DNA from: Salinibacter pepae
GTDB taxonomy: Bacteria > Bacteroidota > Rhodothermia > Rhodothermales > Salinibacteraceae
Assembly: GCF_947077775.1 (NCBI RefSeq)
Contig: NZ_CAMTTE010000001.1
Span: 248,001-312,000, forward strand
Direction: 5' to 3'
Length of the DNA stretch: 64,000 nt
In this document: positions 4,487 to 14,254 of the stretch, piece after piece
Layout: every line of letters starts with the position of its first letter
Position numbering within the stretch: position 1 is the stretch's first letter
Position numbers and translations under genes: made by a program
The notes under the pieces: generated by a model
The model's database searches: none
Told to the model about the DNA's origin: nothing
The model's input: only the letters and a program-made list of their open reading frames with translations

Positions 4487-5464
4487 CTATCTCAGCACTT
4501 CGCGGAGCGGGTCCGTCGGCTCGCGGTGCTCGTCCGGATGGGCCTCGTCGTGCTGACGCGGCTCAAGATGGGCGGTGACGTGCACGTCCTCGTCCGGAAA
4601 GAGGGCGTCGACCCGGTCTTCGACCTCATGGGACCGGGCGTGCGCCTCGTGGATCGGCATATCGCCCGGAAACATGAGGTGGTATTCGATCCACACCTGG
4701 TCGCCGGACGTGCGGTGGCGCACCTGGTGGAAGCTGGCGATGAGCCCCTCCTCCACCGCGGTGCCCAGCTCGTCGAGCAGGGCGGAGGAGGCCTCCCAGT
4801 CCGCCTCGTCCATCAGGCCGTAGACGGACCGGCGGAGCAGCCCGGTGGCCGTCCACACGATGTTGGCCGCCACCAGCAGCCCCACCGCGGGGTCGAGCCA
4901 ACGGATGCCGGTGACCCACACGAGCCCAACCCCGACGATGACGCCCAGGCTCGTCCACATGTCGGTCAACACGTGCTCCCCGTTCGACACGAGGACGAGG
5001 CTGTTGGTGCGCCGCCCCACGCGGACGAGGTATTTTCCAAGCGCGAAGTTGACGGCCGTAAGCCCGCCGATGAGGTAGAGGCCCACGTCGAGCTGCCGAA
5101 GGTCGGCGCCCGTCACGAGGTCCTGCACGGCCATCCACCCGATGCCGACGGCGGCGGCAAGAATAAGGGCGCCCTCCACAGCCGACGCAAAGTACGCCAC
5201 CTTGCCGTGCCCGTACGGGTGCTCCACGTCCGGCGGCGTGGACGCGTACCACAGGCTGAAGCCCGCGAACCCGGTCGCGAAGAGGTGGATGACGGACTCC
5301 GCGGCGTCGGAGAGGATCGCGGTGCTGCCGGTGAGGGACGCCGCCGTGAGCTTCCCCACGAGCATCAGGAACGACACCAGGAGGCTCGCCGTCATGGCCC
5401 GCCGCCGTGCGCGCTCCGCCTCGTCGCGGGGCTCATCGTGTGAGGACTGGGATTCGAACATCAC
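4487..5464 (-). CDS. Cation diffusion facilitator (CDF) family metal exporter
   Basis: A 325-residue inner-membrane metal/proton antiporter with about six transmembrane helices between residues 25 and 210 and a C-terminal cytoplasmic domain. TM2 carries 'LSDAAESVIH' (Asp53; Ser57 where many zinc transporters have a second Asp) and TM5 'HVLTDMWTS' with His164 and Asp168, the usual intramembrane site. 'HPYGHGK' (83-88) in the TM2-TM3 loop is a CDF signature. The tail is His/Glu/Asp rich (HDEAHPDEHRE), a possible metal-sensing extension. Substrate could be Zn, Fe, Co or Mn; the Asp/Ser pair argues against a canonical YiiP-type zinc site. It is divergent from the epimerase-hydrolase gene, 98 bp away. 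Confidence 0.9.
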   Translation of the reverse strand: MMFESQSSHDEPRDEAERARRRAMTASLLVSFLMLVGKLTAASLTGSTAILSDAAESVIHLFATGFAGFSLWYASTPPDVEHPYGHGKVAYFASAVEGALILAAAVGIGWMAVQDLVTGADLRQLDVGLYLIGGLTAVNFALGKYLVRVGRRTNSLVLVSNGEHVLTDMWTSLGVIVGVGLVWVTGIRWLDPAVGLLVAANIVWTATGLLRRSVYGLMDEADWEASSALLDELGTAVEEGLIASFHQVRHRTSGDQVWIEYHLMFPGDMPIHEAHARSHEVEDRVDALFPDEDVHVTAHLEPRQHDEAHPDEHREPTDPLREVLR

Positions 5465-5562: not shown

Positions 5563-6726
5563 ATGGCTCACCTCGACCACATCGGCATCGCCGTCGACGA
5601 CACCGCGGCCGTCGTCGAACGGTTCCGGGAGCTGCTCGGCATTGCCCCCTACAAGACAGAGGCGGTGCGCGACCAGCAGGTGCGGACCCACTTCCTGGAT
5701 GCCGGCTCGGCCAACCTCGAACTGCTGGAGGCGCTCGCCGACGAGTCTCCGGTTCGGCGCTTTCTGGACCGCCGCGGGGAGGGGCTCCACCACATCGCAT
5801 TCGAGGTCGACGCCCTGTCGGCCACGATGGCGCGCCTCCAGGAGGCCGGGTTTGAGCTGCTAAGCGAGACGCCCCAGGCCGGGGCGGACGACAAGCAAAT
5901 TGTGTTTGTGCACCCGAGCCAAACCCACGGGGTCCTGGTGGAGTTTTGTGAATCCACCACACCCGACTGGACGGCCCGAACCGTGCCCCGCCACGACGGG
6001 CACCTCGCCGTCTTCGAACGGGGGGCACGGGACCGGCCCTCCCTCCTCGTCCTGCACGGCGCCGCGGGGACGACGCAGCACGACGCGGCCCCCCTCATTC
6101 GGCGGTTGGAGTCGTCCTTCCACGTCGTCGGCGTTGACCTGAGCGGACACGGCACGTCGGCCCTGCCTGGGGACGCGCCCCTTTCGCTCGACCTGTTTGC
6201 GGAGGACGTACGCACCGTCCTAAACGCGCTCGACCTGCCCTCGGCGCACGTCGTTGGCTTCTCGCTCGGGGGCGGCGCGGCCCTCCGCCTCGCCCAGCTG
6301 CACCCCGGGCGGGTCGACCGCCTGGCGGTTTTTCAGACAAACGCCCACTGGACGGACGACCACGCCCGTCGCATGCAGGCGCGGCTCGACCTCGATGGCC
6401 TCGCGGACCGGGCCCCGCGCCGCGCAGCGCGCCTCCGGGCCCGCCACGACGCCCCCGACCGCCTCGTGCCGGCCCTCCAGACATTCGTCACCACCCTGCC
6501 GGACGCGTCGGACACGCTTGTCCAAACGCTGCCGGACCTCGACGCCCCGACCCTCGTCGCAGGGCTCGACCGGGATCCCCTCTTCGAACTGGCCTCCACC
6601 CGGGCCCTCCACGACGCCCTCCCCAACGCGCGACTGGCCGTCCTCCCCGGCGACACCCACAGCCTGTCGCGCGCGCCTGTGAGCCGCCTTGCCTCCCTCC
6701 TGGCGAATCATTTCTTGGAGGCATAG
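5563..6726 (+). CDS. Methylmalonyl-CoA epimerase-like (VOC) domain fused to an alpha/beta hydrolase
   Basis: A 387-residue two-domain protein. Residues 1-130 are a vicinal-oxygen-chelate fold like methylmalonyl-CoA epimerase: His6 in 'LDHIGIAVDD', 'NLELLEAL' (51-58), 'GEGLHHIAFEV' with His76/77 and 'GVLVEF' with Glu127 correspond to the metal-ligand strands. Residues 145-387 are an alpha/beta hydrolase: oxyanion 'LHGAAG' (165-169), nucleophile elbow GFSLG with Ser234, acid probably Asp336 or Asp338, and His366. Each half is complete. The frame opens upstream at 5407, but homology starts exactly at ATG 5563. Known family biology suggests CoA-thioester chemistry for the first half; whether the second hydrolyses the same acyl-CoA is inference. 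Spaced 42 bp from the next gene. Confidence 0.85.
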   Translation: MAHLDHIGIAVDDTAAVVERFRELLGIAPYKTEAVRDQQVRTHFLDAGSANLELLEALADESPVRRFLDRRGEGLHHIAFEVDALSATMARLQEAGFELLSETPQAGADDKQIVFVHPSQTHGVLVEFCESTTPDWTARTVPRHDGHLAVFERGARDRPSLLVLHGAAGTTQHDAAPLIRRLESSFHVVGVDLSGHGTSALPGDAPLSLDLFAEDVRTVLNALDLPSAHVVGFSLGGGAALRLAQLHPGRVDRLAVFQTNAHWTDDHARRMQARLDLDGLADRAPRRAARLRARHDAPDRLVPALQTFVTTLPDASDTLVQTLPDLDAPTLVAGLDRDPLFELASTRALHDALPNARLAVLPGDTHSLSRAPVSRLASLLANHFLEA

Positions 6727-6768: not shown

Positions 6769-7770
6769 ATGTCCCTTCCCTCCTACCGCTACCTCGGCGA
6801 CACCGGCGTGAAGGTGTCCCCCCTCTGCTTGGGCACCATGTCCTTCGGCGGCGCCGCGGACCGCGACACGTCTGCCGCGATGTTTCGGCGCTGCCGCGAG
6901 GCCGGGATCAACGTGTTCGACTGCGCCAACGTGTACGAGGACGGCCGCTCCGAGGAGATCCTGGGCGACCTCGTGGCCGACTGCCGGGACGAGGTCGTCC
7001 TCACGACCAAGGCCTACTTTCCGACCGCGGAGGACCCCAATGCCCGCGGGGCAAGCCGGTACCATCTCGTCCGTGCGGTGGAGAACAGCCTGCGGCGGCT
7101 CGGCACGGATCGGATCGACGTGTTCTTCGTGCACCGTTTCGACGAGCAGACGCGTCTCGACGAGACCCTCCGCGCCCTCGAGACGCTAGTGCAGCAGGGC
7201 AAGGTGCTCTACCTCGGCGCCTCGAATTTCGCCGCCTGGCAGGTGATGAAGGCGCTCGGGCGGCAGCGCGCCGAAGGCTGGACGCCCTTCCACGTCCTCC
7301 AGCCGATGTACAACCTCACGAAACGCCAGGCGGAGGTGGAACTCTTGCCGATGGCCCGGAGCGAGGGCCTCGGCGTGCTGTCGTACAGCCCGCTCGGCGG
7401 GGGCCTGCTGACCGGCAAGTACGGGGTCGACCAGCGCCCCGACGACGGGCGGCTGGTCGACAACCCGATGTACCAGACCCGATACGGGGCCGACGTGCAC
7501 TACCAGGTGGCGGAACGGTTTACGACCTTCGCCGCGGAGCAGGGCTACGACCCCGTCTCGCTAGCCGTCGCCTGGGTGGCGCACCATCCCGCGATTACGG
7601 CGCCCATCATCGGTGCCCGCACCCTGGCCCAGCTGGAGGGCTCGCTTGGCGCGCTCGACATTGACATGACCGATGACCTGCGGGCCGAAATCAGCGCCCT
7701 CGCCCCCACCCCACCGCCGGCCACCGACCGCGTCGAGGAGCGCTCAGAGCACACCTACGGCGACCGCTAA
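6769..7770 (+). CDS. Aldo/keto reductase
   Basis: A 333-residue NADP(H)-dependent reductase with the complete aldo/keto reductase TIM barrel. The catalytic tetrad is Asp51, Tyr56, Lys81 and His122 (FDCANVYEDG, LTTKAYF, FFVHRFD). 'LGASNFAAWQV', 'QPMYNLTKRQAEVELLP' and 'YSPLGGGLLTGKYG' are typical of the YajO/Tas-like and potassium-channel-beta-like subgroup, and the C-terminal 'PIIGARTLAQLEGSLGALD' forms the cofactor phosphate site. It reduces aldehydes or ketones in the cytoplasm; the natural substrate is not evident. It follows the epimerase-hydrolase gene closely on the same strand and precedes a hypothetical gene by 16 bp, suggesting a three-gene transcript. Confidence 0.93.
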   Translation: MSLPSYRYLGDTGVKVSPLCLGTMSFGGAADRDTSAAMFRRCREAGINVFDCANVYEDGRSEEILGDLVADCRDEVVLTTKAYFPTAEDPNARGASRYHLVRAVENSLRRLGTDRIDVFFVHRFDEQTRLDETLRALETLVQQGKVLYLGASNFAAWQVMKALGRQRAEGWTPFHVLQPMYNLTKRQAEVELLPMARSEGLGVLSYSPLGGGLLTGKYGVDQRPDDGRLVDNPMYQTRYGADVHYQVAERFTTFAAEQGYDPVSLAVAWVAHHPAITAPIIGARTLAQLEGSLGALDIDMTDDLRAEISALAPTPPPATDRVEERSEHTYGDR

Positions 7771-7786
7771 CCCAGATCCTCCTACG

Positions 7787-8293
7787 ATGAGCTATTACGT
7801 TCCCCAGAAAGACGCGTGGACGGAGACCTCGTCTCTGCCCAACCCTCCATACCTCGCCGTGGACGCGGAGGCCGCGGCCCTGGACTTCGTGGGCGGCCCC
7901 GATGCGTCCGTTGAGGTCACGGGCGCCCCCGTCGACCCCGCGGCCGATACCGTCCACACGGTGGCGACGGTGGACCCGTCTCTTCGGAAGGGCTCCCCGC
8001 TTGGTGCCCTCTACGTGCGGGACACCGATCTCGACGTGGAGGACCGACGCTCCCCGGACGCCCCCCCGGCCCATGCGGACGCCCTAGACCAACTGCGGTC
8101 GGCGCTCGACGAGATCATGATTCCCGTGTACATCGACGATGCAATCGAGGAACTCGGAGAGCCCCTCGACGGACTCCTCGTGCTCCACACCGTGCAGCAC
8201 GAGGACGGGCGCGACGCCCCACCCACCTATTTTCGAGCAGCGATCTTCGAAGACGGGAATCTCGTCCTGGAGACCGAGCACGGGGCCCTTTGA
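7787..8293 (+). CDS. Hypothetical acidic protein, 168 aa
   Basis: I do not recognise this protein. It starts at ATG 7787, 16 bp after the aldo/keto reductase, and ends at TGA 8291-8293. It is acidic, has no signal peptide or membrane segment, and no cysteine, so it is probably a cytoplasmic soluble protein. The N-terminal half contains alternating strand-like segments (YLAVDAEAAALDFV, SVEVTGAPVD); the C-terminal half has a helix-like region rich in Leu/Asp and a hydrophobic patch 'PLDGLLVLHTVQHEDG'. Codon use and composition match the neighbours, which supports a real gene in the same transcript as the reductase. No function can be assigned. Confidence 0.6.
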   Translation: MSYYVPQKDAWTETSSLPNPPYLAVDAEAAALDFVGGPDASVEVTGAPVDPAADTVHTVATVDPSLRKGSPLGALYVRDTDLDVEDRRSPDAPPAHADALDQLRSALDEIMIPVYIDDAIEELGEPLDGLLVLHTVQHEDGRDAPPTYFRAAIFEDGNLVLETEHGAL

Positions 8294-12352: not shown

Positions 12353-14254
12353 ATGAGCGAGATTCTCGACGACAAGCCCGAGGTCCTCGTCCAGAAGCTC
12401 GACGCCCTCCCCACCGACCCGGGCGTCTACAAATTTCTGGACGACGAGGGGTCGGTCCTCTACGTGGGCAAGGCCAAGACCCTGCGCAATCGGGTGCGCA
12501 CCTACTTCCAGAGCAGCCGCCAGCGCGACGGGCGGATCGAGGTGATGGTGCAGAAGGCCGTCGACGTGGACATCATCGTGACGGACACGGAGGCGGAGGC
12601 GCTCATTCTGGAGAACAACCAGATCAAGGAGCTGCAGCCCCGCTACAACGTCAACCTGCGGGACGACAAGACCTACCCCTACATCTGCATCAAAAATGAG
12701 CGCTTCCCCCGCGTCTTCAAGACGCGAAATGTGAAGCAGGACGGGTCCGAGTACTTCGGCCCGTACGCGGACGTGTCCAAGATGAACGCGATGATGGACG
12801 CGATCCGGTCGGTCTTTCAGCTGCGCACCTGCTCGCTCGACCTCACCGAGGAGAAAATTGAGGCCGGCACGTACGACGTGTGCTTGCAGCACCACATCGA
12901 CAACTGCAAGGGCCCGTGCGAGGGGCTGCAGTCCGAGGCGGACTACATGGAGACGATCGAGCAGGTCAAGAAGCTGCTCAACGGCCAGACGCAGTCGCTC
13001 ATCGACCTCCTCAAGGACGAAATGCAGGCGCAGTCCGACCGAAAAAACTTTGAGGAAGCCGCGCGCCTGCGCGACCAGGTGAAGGCGCTGAAGGACTACT
13101 CCCAGCAGCAAAAGGTCGTCAGCCAGGACTTTGCGGACCGCGACGTGTTTGCCCTCCACGTCGAGCGGGACGAGGACATCGGCTGCGGCGTGCTCTTTCA
13201 GGTGCGGGAGGGCAAGATGATCGGCAAGCGGCACAAGTTTCTCCGCTCGGTAGAGGAGCGGTCGAACGCGGAGCTGATCCTGTCCCTGGTGGAGAACTAC
13301 TACGCCGAGGCGAACTTCTACCCGGAGGAGGTCCTCCTCTCCCACGACCCGAACGACCACCCGGCCCAGGACACCCACGCCCTCGAAGCACTGCTCCGGC
13401 GGGAGCAGGGGCACCAGGTGCCAATCAAGGTCCCTCAGCGCGGCGAGAAGGCCAGCCTCGTCCGCATGGCCGCGTCCAACGCGAAGCTGCAGGTCGGCGA
13501 GTGGAAGACCCAGCAGATGAAGCGGGAGCGCAACCGCATCCCAGAGAGCATCAAGGCGCTGGGCGAGGCGCTCGACATGGACGCCCCCCCGCGGCGCGTG
13601 GACGGCATCGACGTGTCCCACCACGGCGGCAAGGAGACGGTCGCCTCCTGCGTCGTCTTCACCGACGCGACGCCGCGCAAGAGCGACTACCGCACCTACA
13701 AGATCCGCTCGACTGAGGAGGGCACGCCCGACGACTACAAGGCGATGCGCGAGGTGGTGCGGCGCCGCTACCGGCGCATGGTGGAGGAGGACGGCCCCTG
13801 GCCCGACCTGGTCGTTATCGACGGCGGGAAGGGCCAGCTGTCCAGCGCCGTGGAGATGCTCAAAGAGGTGGGTGCCTTCGACCGGTTCCCCGTCATCGGC
13901 CTCGCGAAGCGTCTCGAAGAGGTCTACCGCCCCGGCGACTCCGACCCGGTCTTCCTCGCAAAGGACAGCCCCGCGCTGCAGCTGCTCCAGAAGGTGCGGG
14001 ACGAGGCCCACCGGTTCGCCGTCACCTACCAGCGCAAGCGCCGCAAGAAGAAGACGCTCCAGTCCGAGCTGCTCGACATCCACGGCATCGGCCCCAAGAC
14101 CGCGAAGACGCTGCTCGGGGAATTGGGGTCCGTGGCGAAGGTCAAGGAGGCCGACGAAGAGGCCCTGGCCGAGGTCGTGGGCCCGGCCAAAGCCGAGACC
14201 ATCACGGACTACTACGACGAGACCGAGGCCCCGGCGCCCGCGGAGACGGAGTAG
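12353..14254 (+). CDS. uvrC: UvrABC excision nuclease subunit C
   Basis: A 633-residue UvrC, which makes both incisions around a DNA lesion after UvrA/UvrB recognition. Domains in order: GIY-YIG nuclease (about 14-95, 'PGVYKFLDDEGSVLYVGKAKTLRNRV'), Cys-rich spacer ('CSLDL', 'CLQHHIDNCKGPCEG'), UVR helical hairpin binding UvrB (about 205-240, 'NFEEAARLRDQVKAL'), the RNase H-like endonuclease ('RRVDGIDVSHHGGKETVASCVVF', 'DLVVIDGGKGQL'), and a C-terminal helix-hairpin-helix pair ('LLDIHGIGPKTAKTLLGELGSV'). Length is normal. The N-terminal Met at 12353 is eleven residues before the fold begins. The gene stands divergent from the toxin-antitoxin pair. Confidence 0.97.
   Translation: MSEILDDKPEVLVQKLDALPTDPGVYKFLDDEGSVLYVGKAKTLRNRVRTYFQSSRQRDGRIEVMVQKAVDVDIIVTDTEAEALILENNQIKELQPRYNVNLRDDKTYPYICIKNERFPRVFKTRNVKQDGSEYFGPYADVSKMNAMMDAIRSVFQLRTCSLDLTEEKIEAGTYDVCLQHHIDNCKGPCEGLQSEADYMETIEQVKKLLNGQTQSLIDLLKDEMQAQSDRKNFEEAARLRDQVKALKDYSQQQKVVSQDFADRDVFALHVERDEDIGCGVLFQVREGKMIGKRHKFLRSVEERSNAELILSLVENYYAEANFYPEEVLLSHDPNDHPAQDTHALEALLRREQGHQVPIKVPQRGEKASLVRMAASNAKLQVGEWKTQQMKRERNRIPESIKALGEALDMDAPPRRVDGIDVSHHGGKETVASCVVFTDATPRKSDYRTYKIRSTEEGTPDDYKAMREVVRRRYRRMVEEDGPWPDLVVIDGGKGQLSSAVEMLKEVGAFDRFPVIGLAKRLEEVYRPGDSDPVFLAKDSPALQLLQKVRDEAHRFAVTYQRKRRKKKTLQSELLDIHGIGPKTAKTLLGELGSVAKVKEADEEALAEVVGPAKAETITDYYDETEAPAPAETE

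Follow-up and report, generated by a model that had tools for sequence, protein, structure and literature searches.

A methylmalonyl-CoA epimerase of Salinibacter pepae fused to a putative accessory serine hydrolase, with probable repeated loss of the hydrolase at one locus

The window (the whole stretch of 64,000 nucleotides analysed here, C1:248001-312000 of a 3.63-Mb genome) contains a gene in which a methylmalonyl-CoA epimerase (MCE) domain is joined to an alpha/beta hydrolase domain. The data as a whole are best explained, and we think probably correctly, by an old fusion of the sole epimerase to a complete accessory serine hydrolase that has since been lost repeatedly in place. The fused protein would be the organism's only MCE, with a second, apparently catalytically complete serine hydrolase attached. 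The epimerase would serve the mutase pathway; the hydrolase would be an active accessory esterase or thioesterase, not a required step, and possibly clears a side product of propionyl/methylmalonyl metabolism. The fusion would have had a single origin, in the ancestor of the order Rhodothermales or of the MCE-keeping part of that order, and several lineages would later have lost the nucleophilic Ser along with the lid, so that the same locus now encodes, after the epimerase, either a compact non-catalytic module or nothing. The features concerned are as follows, in window positions.

4487 to 5464, minus strand: cation-efflux gene (PF01545), the divergent neighbour; conserved locus marker from synteny
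5563 to 6726, plus strand: fused MCE-alpha/beta hydrolase gene, identified from its open reading frame and translation; 387 aa, ATG start, TAG stop
5563 to 5964, plus strand: N-terminal MCE domain, residues 1-134 (TIGR03081; model matches MCE structures)
5965 to 6723, plus strand: C-terminal alpha/beta hydrolase domain, residues 135-387 (Abhydrolase_1; fold match)
6262 to 6264, plus strand: nucleophile Ser234 in GFSLGG, invariant in 34 of 34 intact fusions
6340 to 6540, plus strand: helical hydrolase lid, roughly residues 260-326 (in the model, the helices that lie between strands 251-257 and 330-335)
6574 to 6576, plus strand: probable catalytic acid Asp338, which aligns with the DPL in human valacyclovir hydrolase (Asp336 is invariant too)
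6658 to 6660, plus strand: catalytic His366, invariant in 34 of 34 and aligned with a His of valacyclovir hydrolase
6769 to 7770, plus strand: aldo/keto reductase (PF00248), not judged part of the system
12353 to 14254, plus strand: downstream gene taken to be uvrC, named from synteny in relatives; conserved locus marker and tree marker

Both domains appear complete, and both halves look competent. Residues 3-130 score 132.8 bits against NCBIfam TIGR03081, passing the curated equivalog cut-off of 114.95, and residues 159-269 score 79.1 bits against Pfam Abhydrolase_1 (cut-off 25.8). An AlphaFold2 model of the intact fusion, based on 34 intact sequences, has a pLDDT of 93.4 and a pTM of 0.87 and includes a complete alpha/beta hydrolase with helical lid. 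H6, E53, H76 and E127 of the MCE domain and S234, D336, D338 and H366 of the hydrolase are invariant in 34/34 intact sequences (L122, which lies at a contig end, was left out of this count), as are the lid residues W263 and H295. S234, D338 and H366 form a putative Ser-Asp-His triad in the usual alpha/beta hydrolase order. The four MCE residues are retained in all 106 aligned MCE sequences; we take them to be the metal-ligand positions (His-Glu(Gln)-His-Glu), with roles as in known epimerases. The initial annotation had described a complete epimerase domain with metal ligands joined to a complete Ser-Asp-His hydrolase, and both parts of that description are confirmed. It had also advised a search for proteins of the same domain order, which returned the intact fusion in 34 genomes. 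Since 33 of these are genomes other than that of the window, with identities of 38-92%, and the junction is common to all 34, we discard the idea that an assembly error joined two genes.

The N-terminal domain resembles known MCEs (TIGR03081; 3oa4, 6wf6, 1jc4, 3rmu) over its whole extent, in its metal-ligand positions and in a score above the cut-off. However, the solved MCE chains matched are 134-161 aa long, whereas the present chain continues into a hydrolase. The hydrolase is like BPHL (human valacyclovir hydrolase, 2ocg; Z 30.6, rmsd 2.4-2.5 over 246 residues for model residues 135-385) and C-C hydrolases such as CumD (1iuo; Z 29.8) in its core, its helical lid and its Ser-Asp-His residues, but its identity to them is at most 22%, and both were solved as separate enzymes. 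The residue after the Ser is Leu here (GFSLGG), as opposed to Asp in BPHL (GWSDGG). An Asp next to the nucleophile has a role in BPHL, and we rejected BPHL identity because this residue is missing. The 3-oxoadipate enol-lactonase PcaD (TIGR02427) was likewise rejected, at 73.4 bits against a cut-off of 255.85. Among solved structures, the best phmmer match for the hydrolase is PhaZ, the poly(3-hydroxybutyrate) depolymerase of Bacillus thuringiensis (8ynv), with about 111 residues in the best stretch, a match from which function is not inferable. The best reading is that the hydrolase is one of the general small-molecule alpha/beta hydrolases.

These comparisons bear on whether the hydrolase might act on an unrelated small ester or lactone, with only promoter and polypeptide in common with the epimerase. 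This is what one might expect of a domain whose nearest structures and sequences are generic small-molecule hydrolases, and which, among the NCBIfam matches listed (25 of 37), stays far short of the cut-off of any named hydrolase model. It fits less well with an intact fusion in six families that has invariant residues in both halves, and we regard it as quite possible but rather to be doubted than believed.

No second, stand-alone MCE in the genome passes the TIGR03081 cut-off, which answers a further check proposed in the initial annotation and leaves the fused gene as the sole one. There are four methylmalonyl-CoA mutase matches in the genome, of which those listed are C1:514664-516259, C1:516699-518237 and a third within a frame of 1221 aa at C1:400158; we read the first two as paired small and large mutase subunits. 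Four carboxyl-transferase (PF01039) matches are also above cut-off. Given a sole MCE together with mutase and carboxyl-transferase matches, the fused gene very probably encodes the epimerase for the route from propionyl-CoA to succinyl-CoA. Across the order, a mutase match was present in 97 of the 100 genomes examined. MCE matches are absent from all seven f3 family genomes, and in 7/7 the best mutase match listed is confined to positions 152-511 and lies in a frame of roughly 1160 aa; hence, MCE apparently accompanies the two-subunit mutase. One genome (G017), 62% complete, has an intact fusion yet no mutase match. Separately, one 395-aa frame at C1:3582913-3583713 (G000; L008, L009) contains two weak TIGR03081 VOC matches (35.8 and 29.4 bits) and may encode a dioxygenase with two domains, for instance 4-hydroxyphenylpyruvate dioxygenase.

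To place the fusion in a wider setting, we collected related genes from the order, the class and the phylum. The fusion is matched at E 1e-22 or better in 95 of 114 genomes of the order. With three genes at contig ends (L028, L029, L122) and one with a broken reading frame (L142) left out, 92 genes were classed: 34 are intact (243-260 residues beyond MCE), 35 are eroded (106-191 residues) and 23 are without the domain, and no C-terminal length lies between 191 and 243. The intact form is retained in six families. In other orders of the class, MCE is stand-alone in 14/14 outgroup genes. A phylum sample gave matches at E 1e-45 in 17 of 394 genomes, all within the order; no independent fusion outside the order was seen at this threshold, which a more diverged fusion would escape. 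Matches were present in 44 plasmid records, none covering 80% of the query. As for possible pre-fusion neighbours, no hydrolase ORF was found at E 1e-3 in 78 stand-alone MCE loci (L041-L118), nor in the 14 outgroup loci. We also considered whether the hydrolase had moved elsewhere in eroded genomes and rejected this, there being no strong candidate among the matches listed (to about E 1.4e-10, about 41 bits). The best hydrolase-only match among those listed, with fragments of truncated or frame-broken fusions (G022, G075) disregarded, scores 68.3 bits and belongs to G024, itself fusion-bearing; complete intact fusions score at least 223 bits.

MCE without a catalytic hydrolase thus accounts for 58 of the 92 classified genes, and from this we conclude that hydrolase function is dispensable. 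This result matters for the suggestion, made in the initial annotation, that a CoA thioester is isomerised and then cleaved, or that the hydrolase performs an editing or release step. In such a scheme, the hydrolase would cleave methylmalonyl-CoA or another thioester made by or near the epimerase, the two acting as one unit. Consistent with this, both active sites look complete and are co-conserved in 34/34 intact fusions, a mutase match is nearly always present in the order, as noted above, and the fold matches include a thioesterase domain (3qit). On the other hand, no CoA-specific feature was identified in the hydrolase, and its best matches fall among esterases and C-C hydrolases, along with a PHB depolymerase. 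Because so many relatives have lost the hydrolase while nearly all genomes have a mutase match, an obligatory coupled step is unlikely, and an accessory step is favoured. Hence, the competence of both halves stands, direct support for cleavage after isomerisation was not found, and we view a coupled editing enzyme as unlikely, giving the same rather low odds to a thioesterase that would act on CoA esters of the propionate route.

The accessory hydrolase appears to have been lost without the locus being exchanged. The upstream divergent cation-efflux gene and/or downstream uvrC lie in the fetched flanks of 29/34 intact, 28/35 eroded and 21/23 domain-free genes, compared to 0/14 outgroup genes; the fetched loci are similar in size (median 4420 bases inside the order and 4393 outside). 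Both neighbours are present in six genomes of f13 (intact) and in G032 of f7 (eroded). That the same flanking genes mark intact, eroded and domain-free forms indicates that the domain was dismantled in place. Two domain-free genes, those of G057 and G044, are without both conserved neighbours and may be gene replacements. In G057 (L156:1699-3411), the sole MCE match seen is divergent (91.5 bits) and has no hydrolase; its near relatives G063 and G069 have the intact fusion.

Two genes following the fusion in the same direction had been pointed out at the outset, an aldo/keto reductase and an acidic protein. Both are present. The aldo/keto reductase is a local neighbour, in the fetched flanks of 11/34 intact loci, all of the window's family, and tblastn homologues of the acidic protein (46-77% identity) lie close to the fusion in 8 of the loci fetched from close relatives. 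The acidic protein itself (168 aa, window 7787-8293) has no Pfam or NCBIfam match.

Erosion of the hydrolase takes a consistent form. A strict GxSxG motif is present in 34/34 intact and 0/35 eroded C-termini, and the MCE ligands are kept in all 35 eroded genes. Loss of the Ser and loss of lid-sized length co-occur, with no intermediate in 69 genes. The part deleted in eroded relatives is the lid, which is absent between the matched stretches of L132 and L127, where the nucleophile elbow reads GFGLGA and GYANGC, respectively.

To assess whether the stubs derive from the hydrolase, we compared them with the intact domain in several ways, leaving out L028 and L029 (contig ends) and L142 (broken frame). 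Against a profile of the intact hydrolase, eroded C-termini score 71.3 bits in f9, 68.1 in f12, 43.8 in f7 and 20.3-25.4 in f4. Weaker scores were obtained for f5 (G093, 19.1), f2 (G027, 15.7), f15 (at most 13.2) and f14 (at most 3.6), with reversed-copy controls reaching at most 2.7 bits. Searches with single sequences gave a profile match at E < 0.01 for 15/35 stubs, and 2/4 genes of f2 (G066, G060) showed no hydrolase homology in this search. Profile-profile comparison with the intact hydrolase gave probabilities of 99.3% for f12, 98.7% for f9, 97.6% for f7, 94.3% for f4, 93.6% for three long f15 stubs, 91.9% for two f5 genes, 79.8% for eleven short f15 stubs, 75.5% for f2 and 22.4% for f14. 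When intermediate forms served as the reference, the values rose to 87.9% for f14 and 95.9% for the short f15 stubs and fell to 35.5% for f2 and 62.4% for the two f5 genes; reversed controls gave at most 1.1%. Counter to the homology reading, f2 resembles the intermediate forms less closely than the intact ones, f14 versus f15 gave 0.4% and f5a versus f2 gave 4.6%. For the stubs of G054, G107, G108 and G110 (three f5 genes taken jointly and one alone), no hydrolase homology was found by profile-profile comparison (at most 0.9%). Judged from group profiles, then, 31 of the 35 stubs appear tied to the hydrolase, with f2 the weakest case, and the other four are unproven.

The number of losses was estimated on a UvrC tree, in which 10 of the 11 listed families were recovered as one side of a branch, the exception being f2. 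One caveat here is that the tree rests on one gene from 80 genomes and a quick search, with SH-aLRT only and no bootstrap; G110 has no UvrC in it. If the intact fusion is ancestral and there is no regain, the tree as drawn implies 8 losses, and collapsing weak branches gives 7-10 (<80), 6-10 (<90) or 3-13 (<95), with G057 counted as one of the losses and L028, L029, L122 and L142 left out. On this tree, the hydrolase would have been lost separately about 6-10 times, or three times if only the best branches are trusted. Both states occur together only in family f9, where G034 and G055 are intact and G046 is eroded.

The scatter of the intact form over this tree could instead mean that fused genes spread horizontally within the order, so that gains were independent and loss did not give rise to the shortened and stand-alone forms; the domain-free genes of G057 and G044, as possible replacements, would be in keeping with this. 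Such a history is hard to square with the same two flanking genes at intact, eroded and domain-free forms, or with the homology of the stubs to the hydrolase by group profiles, and we deem it very improbable.

What remains of the hydrolase after its loss is predicted to fold. The 249-aa stub form of f15 (L153, 14 sequences), which belongs to the smallest class of stubs, has a predicted pLDDT of 91.1 and pTM of 0.81, with block means of about 80-96 from residue 131 on, and its elements would correspond to those of the hydrolase core in the intact model, strands and helices alike, with the lid and the nucleophile helix missing. Because structure searches with the stub were filled with MCE and other one-VOC-domain matches, the only basis for judging its fold is the predicted elements and the sequence profiles. 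In 5/5 disjoint eroded pairs whose dS is below 1 for each of the two parts, stub dN is lower than dS, indicating that the stub is not drifting freely. Relaxed selection, which had been expected, did not reach significance: among 12 eroded and 12 intact disjoint pairs, picked by hand, the median C-terminal/MCE dN ratio is 2.21 versus 1.62 (p 0.12; p 0.27 for the same comparison on amino acids). An earlier impression of relaxed selection, based on overlapping pairs, disappeared with these disjoint pairs, and free decay of the stubs is unsupported. We infer that the stubs probably persist as a structural element of the epimerase. The f15 stub gene abuts or overlaps uvrC, so constraint from translational coupling with uvrC could be an alternative reason for the tail.

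Might the hydrolase have served the epimerase chiefly as structural support ever since the fusion arose, its catalysis being of lesser importance? One would then expect stubs in which the core persists without the active site, and the predicted fold and the dN values are in line with this. However, the triad together with W263 and H295 does not vary among the 34 intact forms, as one would anticipate of a catalytic domain, 23 genes manage without the domain, and the coupling to uvrC could also keep a tail in f15. An original structural role is therefore unlikely in our estimation. Our own reading of the series is that one ancestral fusion gave rise, several times independently and in place, to a compact non-catalytic alpha/beta module that is folded and selected as a structural part of the epimerase, with graded sizes of about 250, 146-191, 106-126 and 0 residues; at this level of detail we put it forward tentatively, as having not quite an even chance of being right.

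As set out by Prakash and Bateman (2015; PMC4432964), domain atrophy is the loss of core structural elements of a domain within a still-used protein, and the survey comprises 75 cases, most with functional sites unaffected. Compared to the cases described there, the active site is lost here, and one orthologous locus is intact, shortened or absent across one order. Core loss in a homologous protein, by which atrophy is recognized, seems to apply to the 31/35 stubs tied to the hydrolase by group profiles, in which the lid and nucleophile region are missing. A search of open-licence papers found no mention of the fusion or its erosion. Domain atrophy itself is a known concept.

Fusions are usually taken as a sign of functional coupling, whereas here a fusion persists while one partner repeatedly loses its catalytic residues. 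If true, repeated erosion amounts to a replicated natural experiment. The graded series at one locus allows a test of how a domain is dismantled and of whether structure alone is reason enough to retain an enzyme domain as it shrinks, and it bears on the original role of the hydrolase in methylmalonyl-CoA metabolism. The label 'methylmalonyl-CoA epimerase' alone can conceal a second domain. A gene of Roseithermus sacchariphilus is listed under this name in a table of PMC7409140.

Two further observations concern the genes surveyed. In a Chitinophagales MAG (L105:2614-4593), a 660-aa open frame encodes AAA-ATPase_like and PDDEXK_9 followed by a complete MCE domain, representing either a real fusion or read-through of a lost stop. 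The large mutase subunit of f10 and f13 (L230, L235, L237, L238, L240-L244) forms a very long branch together with f16 (L274), the f10/f13/f16 mutase open frames being mostly about 530-640 aa. We dropped the mutase tree as a species tree because the mutases of these three families are so different; in f10 and f13, a different mutase type has apparently replaced the usual one.
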